This document shows positions 346-1,771 of a stretch of 38,342 nucleotides of DNA, in pieces. Every line of letters starts with the position of its first letter. Within the stretch, counting starts at the first letter, position 1. The notes beneath the pieces were generated by a model. It made no database searches. It worked only from the letters and a program-made list of their open reading frames with translations, and was not told where the DNA came from. This DNA is from Dehalococcoidia bacterium (GTDB lineage: Bacteria; Chloroflexota; Dehalococcoidia; Lucifugimonadales; Lucifugimonadaceae). The translations under genes and the position numbers were made by a program. The stretch lies in assembly GCA_028281895.1 (NCBI GenBank), contig JANQIZ010000371.1:1-38342 (forward strand). Direction: 5' to 3'.

Positions 346-441
346 ATGGCAATGGCTCAAAGAACATTCATAGCTGCGTGCGCCTGTACCTGTTGCCCCT
401 GTACTCCTGCAGGGGGTTGCGCAAGCGCGTGCTGTTGTTGA
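346..441 (+). CDS. Cysteine-rich 31-aa leader peptide candidate
   Basis: ATG at 346 opens a 31-codon frame ending in TGA at 439-441; a second ATG follows at 352. The first ten residues are ordinary, then nine of the last twenty are Cys, in the pattern C-x-C-x-CC-x-C-x5-C-x3-CCC. The Cys codons mix TGC and TGT, so this is not a simple codon repeat. An AGAG lies 9-10 bases upstream of the first ATG and is only a weak ribosome site. The stop is 30 bases ahead of a rho-independent terminator, and the codons themselves form the first two arms of alternative RNA helices (next entry). I read it first as a leader peptide whose translation senses cysteine supply. Alternatives are a small metal-binding peptide, a modified-peptide precursor, or chance. 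No peptide-modifying enzyme gene is visible in the window. Confidence 0.5.
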   Translation: MAMAQRTFIAACACTCCPCTPAGGCASACCC

Positions 442-482
442 CGGCACACTTCATCCAGATTCATTAGCGCCAACCCTCTGCG
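396..482 (+). promoter_or_regulatory. Three-state attenuator helices overlapping the Cys-rich leader
   Basis: Three competing helices can be drawn. Helix 1:2 is 396-403 with 408-415: eight pairs, one G-U, four-base loop. Helix 2:3 is 408-419 with 471-482: twelve continuous pairs, two of them G-U. Helix 3:4 is 472-482 with 487-497, the terminator. Helices 1:2 and 2:3 share segment 408-415, and 2:3 and 3:4 share 472-482, so they exclude each other. Five Cys codons (379-402) lie just before and inside arm 1. A ribosome stalled there for lack of Cys-tRNA would cover arm 1, free arm 2 for the antiterminator 2:3, and allow readthrough. Free translation would let 1:2 and the terminator form. This is the classical amino-acid attenuation layout. 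The mechanism is inferred from base pairing only. Confidence 0.5.
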
Positions 483-501
483 AATACGCCGAGGGTTTTT
501 T
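472..501 (+). terminator. Rho-independent terminator after the Cys-rich leader
   Basis: The arms 472-478 and 491-497 form seven pairs. After one mismatch they continue with three more G-C pairs (480-482 with 487-489) closed by an AATA loop, and a run of six T (496-501) follows. It ends the transcript carrying the amidohydrolase and/or the Cys-rich leader, and it is arm 3:4 of the proposed attenuator. Confidence 0.85.
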
Positions 502-534: not shown

Positions 535-648
535 ATGAACAGCATCATCAAGCAAGCCATATCTTTCAGTCGAAAGCTCTTCACCAGGATTCAAGGACTG
601 GCGGTCGAGTCCGACTCCCTGGGCTACGCCCGCTCCCGTAAGTCCTGA
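535..648 (+). CDS. Possible 37-aa small protein between terminator and phyH-like gene
   Basis: An ATG at 535 opens a 37-codon frame ending in TGA at 646-648. The product would be basic (several Lys/Arg) with a possible short amphipathic helix in its first half and an SRKS tail. No convincing ribosome site precedes it; the bases just upstream read GCCAGCACA. It is not recognised. It would be transcribed only by readthrough of the terminator at 472-501 or from an unseen promoter. The rest of the 505-base gap (289-793) holds nothing else I can identify apart from the leader, terminator and promoter listed here; no tRNA is seen. Confidence 0.2.
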   Translation: MNSIIKQAISFSRKLFTRIQGLAVESDSLGYARSRKS

Positions 649-793: not shown

Positions 794-1771
794 ATGCCTG
801 CACTAACCGCTGAGCAGAAAGAACATCTCGACGAATTTGGATTTGTACACGTTCCCGATGTGCTGGATCCAGAAAACGTGATAGACCCGGTGATCGACGA
901 GTATGCCGGAGTCCTTGATTCACTCGCCGAAGAGCTTTTTTCCAAAGGGATCATCTCGTCGACATACAGCGAGCTCGATTTCAGCGAGCGCGTCACGCGT
1001 ATCTATGAGGAAAGCGGCGAGATCTACAACGGATACTTCGATTTCTCGCTCCCACAGAACGGAATCAAGGCAGACACACCGTTCTGGGCTGGCCCGGCGG
1101 TATTCGGCGCGCTCACAGCTCCTGGGCTGCTGGACGCGGTTGAGTCGGTTGTTGGCCCTGAGATCTATTCGAACCCTGTCCAGCACGTGCGTATCAAGGT
1201 TCCCGAGTCGCGAGCTCCGCGCGATGAGAACGGGCAGGTCAAGTTCGGGGTGACGCCGTGGCATCAGGACAGCGGTGTGGTCAATCCGGAAGCAGATCAG
1301 ACAGACATGCTCACGGTCTGGTTCCCTCTAATGGACACCTCGCCTGAGAACGGTTGCCTGCAGGTGGTTCCTGGCTCTCACACCGGACAGTTACTGACGC
1401 ACTGCCCCGGATACAAGCAGGTAGCGGGAGTCACTATCCCTACCAACATGTTCGAGGAAGGAGCCGCAATGCCCGTGCCCATTAAGAAGGGCGGCGCACT
1501 CTTCCTCAACAAGCTGACTGTCCATTCATCATTGCCGAACGTTTCGGATCGAATCCGCTGGAGTTTCGACCTTCGGTATCACCCCGTCGGCCAGCCAACT
1601 GGCCGCAGTGTCTTCCCTGGGTTCGTGGCAAGGAGCCGATCGAACCCCGGTTCCGAGCTGCACGATGCACAGCGCTGGTACATGATGTGGAAAGACACGC
1701 GCGATTCGCTGGCGCGTGCCGAGCAGCCAACGTTCAACCGCTGGGACACTGACGACCCCGCCTGCGCCTAG
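794..1771 (+). CDS. Phytanoyl-CoA dioxygenase (PhyH) family Fe(II)/2-oxoglutarate oxygenase
   Basis: 325 aa. PhyH-family enzymes hydroxylate a C-H bond while decarboxylating 2-oxoglutarate. The iron-binding facial triad is visible: H157 and D159 in WHQDSG, and H244 in VHSSLPN, with a 2-oxoglutarate-binding Arg shortly after (DRIRWSF). A core strand reads LTVWFPLMDTS, followed by the NGCLQVVPGSH loop typical of the family. The protein is cytosolic, with no signal peptide. The start is ATG 794; AAGG lies about 8 bases upstream. The stop TAG overlaps the stop of the convergent aldolase gene by four bases. The substrate is unknown: the family covers phytanoyl-CoA, ectoine and many small metabolites. 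The proposed cysteine attenuator upstream makes a sulfur-containing substrate an idea worth testing, nothing more. Confidence 0.9.
   Translation: MPALTAEQKEHLDEFGFVHVPDVLDPENVIDPVIDEYAGVLDSLAEELFSKGIISSTYSELDFSERVTRIYEESGEIYNGYFDFSLPQNGIKADTPFWAGPAVFGALTAPGLLDAVESVVGPEIYSNPVQHVRIKVPESRAPRDENGQVKFGVTPWHQDSGVVNPEADQTDMLTVWFPLMDTSPENGCLQVVPGSHTGQLLTHCPGYKQVAGVTIPTNMFEEGAAMPVPIKKGGALFLNKLTVHSSLPNVSDRIRWSFDLRYHPVGQPTGRSVFPGFVARSRSNPGSELHDAQRWYMMWKDTRDSLARAEQPTFNRWDTDDPACA

Follow-up and report, generated by a model that had tools for sequence, protein, structure and literature searches.

A predicted cysteine attenuator upstream of a conserved small-protein gene family in Dehalococcoidia

Cysteine-coded leaders and amino acid attenuators

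In attenuators of the trp and his type, the control codons of the leader peptide lie just 5' of an RNA arm that pairs with the 5' arm of the terminator. The locus described here, found in a window of 38,342 nucleotides (the whole stretch of DNA analysed, G000:C145) and compared with metagenome-assembled genomes of Dehalococcoidia and other Chloroflexi, has the same layout: its control codons sit just 5' of an arm (arm 2) that can pair with the terminator 5' arm, and it shares with this class a cluster of control codons in 24/24 loci, an intrinsic terminator and an antiterminator supported by covariation. It differs in that Cys replaces Trp or His, arm 2 lies within the leader ORF, 5' of the stop codon, and there is no conserved 1:2 pause or protector helix; for the last reason it is best described as a variant of the trp-type attenuator and not as a strict member. 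A further trait of the class, control of genes for the synthesis, import or charging of the sensed amino acid, fits the related leaders found upstream of cysH, sulfite reductase and sulfur transporter genes.

Cys-coded leaders were reported for cys and cbs genes of Actinobacteria, where no conserved terminator hairpin was seen and Rho was suggested (Seliverstov et al. 2005, PMC1262725), and, according to PMC9031893 and PMC9094748, polycysteine attenuators on leaderless sORFs of mycobacteria were described by Canestrari et al. (2020). As far as those citing accounts go, the actinobacterial systems have in common with the present one a short leader rich in Cys (leaderless in mycobacteria) that precedes sulfur or cysteine genes, and an elongation rate over the Cys codons that is, or here would be, set by cysteine availability. 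In contrast to the leaders of Seliverstov et al., the present locus has a conserved intrinsic terminator together with an antiterminator that covaries; furthermore, its host belongs to the Chloroflexota, and the targets include a small protein without an assigned function. Leaderless leader peptides followed by hairpins and a U-run are also known from Streptomyces lividans, for example leuL2 and trpL1 (PMC8079986), which resemble the present leader in that arrangement but belong to another phylum and to other amino acids, with no Cys leader among those reported. A literature search of partial coverage returned no description of Cys-coded leaders in Chloroflexota.

The leader, its alternative helices and their conservation

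A sequence-only reading of this DNA had proposed a three-state attenuator with a Cys-rich leader, and the reading frame is present as described: 31 codons at 346-441, with nine Cys inside the 20 codons of 379-438. The first cluster consists of codons 379, 385, 391, 394 and 400, and later Cys codons follow at 418, 430, 433 and 436. The start codon has to be revised, with ATG352 likelier than ATG346, because a conserved promoter-like pair on the forward strand (316-344; TTGCCT at 316-321, 17 nt, TATTGT at 339-344) would put the transcript start at about 351. Initiation at ATG352 would probably yield a leaderless 29-codon peptide (MAQRTFIAACACTCCPCTPAGGCASACCC, 352-441, forward strand), a leader that is kept in 24/24 loci. 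The promoter-like pair was called by conservation, being absent at 316-344 from the output of a generic sigma-70 scan: the hexamer pair is found again in relatives, 7-10 nt 5' of the leader ATG, and also precedes the cysH, sir and DUF4395 leaders of the same genome. This position implies a predicted 5' UTR of 0-3 nt for the Cys leaders.

The RNA of the forward strand can adopt alternative folds, and 380-505 folds at -49.0 kcal/mol, compared with -37.0 +/- 3.2 for shuffled sequences (z -3.7). The proposed twelve-pair antiterminator was confirmed, with arm 2 (408-419) paired to arm 3 (471-482). Arm 3 is shared with an intrinsic terminator (472-501; helix 3:4, 472-482/487-497) that folds at -15.1 kcal/mol and ends in six T (T496-T501); its stem, as now resolved, consists of ten pairs around one U-C mismatch (479/490). 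Helix 1:2 (396-403/408-415) has eight pairs including one G-U, and a further hairpin (GTGCTGTTGTTGACGGCAC, 430-454) covers the leader stop codon, nested in the loop of 2:3; in folded relatives a hairpin of different sequence is predicted at the same place. For 10/10 sequences tested, the predicted stability of 2:3 exceeds that of 3:4 as long as arm 2 is unoccupied. A known riboswitch, T-box or other RNA family was rejected, with no Rfam covariance-model match in 200-900 up to E 10, and a repeat or mobile element was rejected since the element is single-copy in its own genome.

Three congeners share 77-81% identity with the window over DNA 329-508, and in their alignment conservation extends to the Cys codons, arms 2 and 3, the terminator and the following 37-aa ORF. 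A promoter-like pair of leaderless appearance, Cys leader, antiterminator, terminator and small ORF are all found in each of 24 genomes, which belong to four genera within a single family (21 recovered with a small-ORF profile, and three of genus g7 with a refined profile). This identity and recurrence argue that the element is not a product of chance. An intrinsic terminator separates leader and target in all 24 loci, and the leader carries at least four Cys in 23 of them, the exception being G052, with two in the first cluster and three in the second; the G002 peptide is MFDQRFTSCACICCLCTPAEGGASACCC. The first cluster stops 6-7 nt 5' of arm 2 in every locus except that of G057 (23/24), and from this spacing and the typical extent of a ribosome footprint, a stall on any cluster codon but the last would leave arm 2 free. 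The second cluster (430-438 in the window) sits 3' of arm 2 in leaders of g1 and g8 and is absent from those of g3 and g7; a ribosome stalled there would partly mask arm 2.

Covariation supports the antiterminator. In 18 aligned sequences, 93.3% of 2:3 cells are paired, against 26-55% when the arms are slid, both sides have changed in 5/10 pairs, and the covariation score is 0.300 compared with 0.155 +/- 0.021 in shuffles. An anchored test on 24 sequences found 209/240 cells paired, a value matched by 0/5000 free permutations and, more weakly, reached by 160/5000 permutations within clades. In G041, arm 2 has C and arm 3 has G while arm 4 still has T, so the change is compensated in 2:3 and not in 3:4. 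Helix 1:2 behaves differently: 70.8% of its cells are paired, its outer pairs are broken in most relatives and no covariation above shuffles was detected, with one compensated change inside the helix in G002. A conserved helix 1:2 was therefore rejected on pair counts, the full-length form being peculiar to the window copy. Thus, of the proposed three states, the switch between 2:3 and 3:4 is conserved and helix 1:2 is a feature of the window; the relatives, in which the sequence-only reading proposed to look, show conserved Cys codons and a covarying 2:3, and no covariation above shuffles for 1:2.

Six members of g1 and g8 (G001, G004, G006, G045, G055 and G058) gave neither a small ORF nor a strong attenuator match. 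In several of these the amidohydrolase gene that elsewhere lies upstream is missing or near a contig end, and G055 retains it; the absences may reflect incomplete assemblies.

Cys leaders at sulfur genes and the small target gene

A covariance model returned 21 strong matches, one per genome and all 5' of the small ORF, and several weak matches that correspond to other Cys leaders. A pattern search (TGTTGY, 60-90 nt, GGGGTTTTT) matched the family genomes 91 times, at about 73 different places when counted by hand, whereas the reversed control gave 12 matches. These leaders are a sample of the regulon. The genes that follow those examined encode DUF4395 proteins (13, including two scored 'other' by automatic assignment), YeeE/YedE sulfur transporters (8) and ThiF/MoeB proteins (7), and more rarely CysH (3), sulfite reductase (2) and a peroxiredoxin (1, L106). 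One Cys leader is followed, 173 nt away, by a Cys/Met PLP enzyme gene, and five more had no gene assigned or were chance-like. The ThiF/MoeB-type genes preceded by Cys leaders and terminators belong to g4 and g10 (L129, L132, L160, L162, L167, L168 and L169).

Within the window's own genome, a Cys leader and terminator precede cysH (leader MSSKFYCNCACTCRLTFETGVV; L175, G000:C316:24-755, reverse strand), a DUF4395 gene (leader MSALNARIVMTCLCCTCKEPAVG; L181, G000:C339:5232-5756, reverse strand) and the sulfite reductase gene sir (leader MKAITEITSWTCCRRA; L182, G000:C7:2954-4741, forward strand). Over the four congeners examined, the same combination was found for cysH in 4/4, DUF4395 in 4/4 and sir in 3/3. 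The own-genome DUF4395 leader can form a 2:3 pairing of 13 contiguous pairs (-30.3 kcal/mol), reached in 0.4% of shuffles, compared with 0.6% for the window pairing. The corresponding pairings of cysH and sir did not exceed chance, being reached in 10% and 80% of shuffles, respectively; for sir only the leader ORF was scored, and a candidate arm 3' of the stop codon lay outside the scored region. In a genome of another family, L122 (G402:C21:6712-6812+, same order) has a leader ending in NQTLCCCCCCLTGVRG, then a terminator, then a gene, from which the device may extend beyond the family.

The gene directly behind the window's terminator (535-648, forward strand) encodes a 37-aa protein, MNSIIKQAISFSRKLFTRIQGLAVESDSLGYARSRKS, of a new family with homologues of 34-44 aa in the 24 genomes. 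Its in-frame pN/pS of 0.32-0.46, against 1.19-1.60 when the two remaining frames are read, identifies it as a protein gene under purifying selection, and it is presumably translated. Searches of Pfam, NCBIfam, PHROGs, PDB sequences and phage records gave no match above threshold, with sub-threshold hits such as DUF7460 (E 0.054) and phrog_2985 (E 0.13). AlphaFold modelled a single helix over residues 2-35 with modest confidence (mean pLDDT 72), which gave no functional lead. In a sample of 393 genomes of the class, no convincing homologue turned up outside the family; the best outside match, in G369, is without a Cys leader. In several g8 genomes the small ORF is followed, ahead of the next gene, by short repeat-like stretches (TGTCATCCTGA.. 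or TGTCATTCTGA..) (L032, L038, L042, L043, L044 and L045).

Proposed mechanism and alternative explanations

The locus is very probably a ribosome-mediated cysteine attenuator that belongs to a cysteine regulon and controls the 37-aa ORF, judging from its sequence and that of its relatives. As such, it would sense Cys-tRNA as the short and probably leaderless Cys-rich peptide is translated. At low Cys-tRNA, a ribosome would stall in the first Cys cluster with its A site at 379-394 and its leading edge short of arm 2, leaving arm 2 to pair with arm 3; formation of 2:3 would preclude the terminator, and RNA polymerase would continue into the ORF at 535-648. With plentiful cysteine, the ribosome would cross arm 2 to the stop codon and block 2:3, so that 3:4 would end transcription at about 501. 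Given the greater predicted stability of 2:3, termination would need arm 2 to be blocked, either by a ribosome that is moving or at the stop codon or by helix 1:2, and this blocking is the least certain part of the model. The sensing of cysteine by a ribosome-mediated attenuator, as first read from the sequence, is strongly supported by the conserved Cys cluster, arms 2 and 3 and terminator, by the covarying 2:3 and by the sister leaders at sulfur genes; the ribosome positions, leaderless initiation and the response to cysteine itself are inferred.

Which gene is controlled can be judged from the neighbourhood. The small ORF always lies just downstream of an Amidohydro_2 gene (3' end at 1-288 in the window, forward strand), and the earlier reading had named both the small frame at 535 and, perhaps, the PhyH dioxygenase gene (794-1771, forward strand) as targets. 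That the attenuator governs phyH and beyond, with the small ORF as bystander or second leader, is unlikely. In the window phyH starts 146 nt past the small ORF on the same strand, and since no terminator was found by the scan between the two, read-through into phyH may occur there; phyH is likewise codirectional downstream in 13/23 readable loci. In the other 10, however, its place is taken by metAP (4), opposite-strand genes (4), a convergent aldolase gene (1) or an epimerase-like gene (1), and in g7 a second terminator lies directly behind the small ORF. Variable downstream genes and the g7 terminator indicate that the small ORF, the only constant target and one under purifying selection, is the conserved target; phyH was rejected in that role by synteny, leaving the small frame as the part of the earlier suggestion that holds.

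There are two further explanations. A switch responding to general redox or thiol stress instead of cysteine supply could account for the peroxiredoxin gene behind L106, but the identified targets are mostly genes of sulfate reduction, sulfur transport or sulfur transfer, which makes this explanation very improbable. Slightly less credible still is a functional Cys-rich peptide, metal-binding or modified, with the terminator as a mere transcription end: the spacing CxCxCxCTPxG...CC.C is well kept in g1 and g8, but g3 and g7 are without the C-terminal cluster, the g7 peptide is different and the leaders of sulfur genes have the Cys run alone in common, while arms 2 and 3 covary and the leader is followed in every case by a conserved coding gene.

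Under the preferred reading, cysteine attenuation of the small ORF, the membership of its switch in a cysteine regulon with cysH, sulfite reductase and DUF4395 makes the 37-aa protein a candidate cysteine-starvation protein, and it is probably part of the cell's response to cysteine starvation. A wider proposal has about an even chance of being correct: a cysteine attenuation regulon with intrinsic terminators, shared across a lineage of Dehalococcoidia, whose previously unannotated 34-44 aa protein would serve specifically in cysteine starvation, as an effector or a regulator that might, for instance, modulate the assimilation of sulfur or the amidohydrolase encoded next to it. These data would extend cysteine-coded attenuation to the Chloroflexota, with intrinsic terminators and a logic that can be read from sequence. 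A regulatory context, cysteine starvation, would be given to a new family of conserved small proteins for which there is no other hint of function, and a cysteine regulon would be exposed in largely uncultured bacteria.
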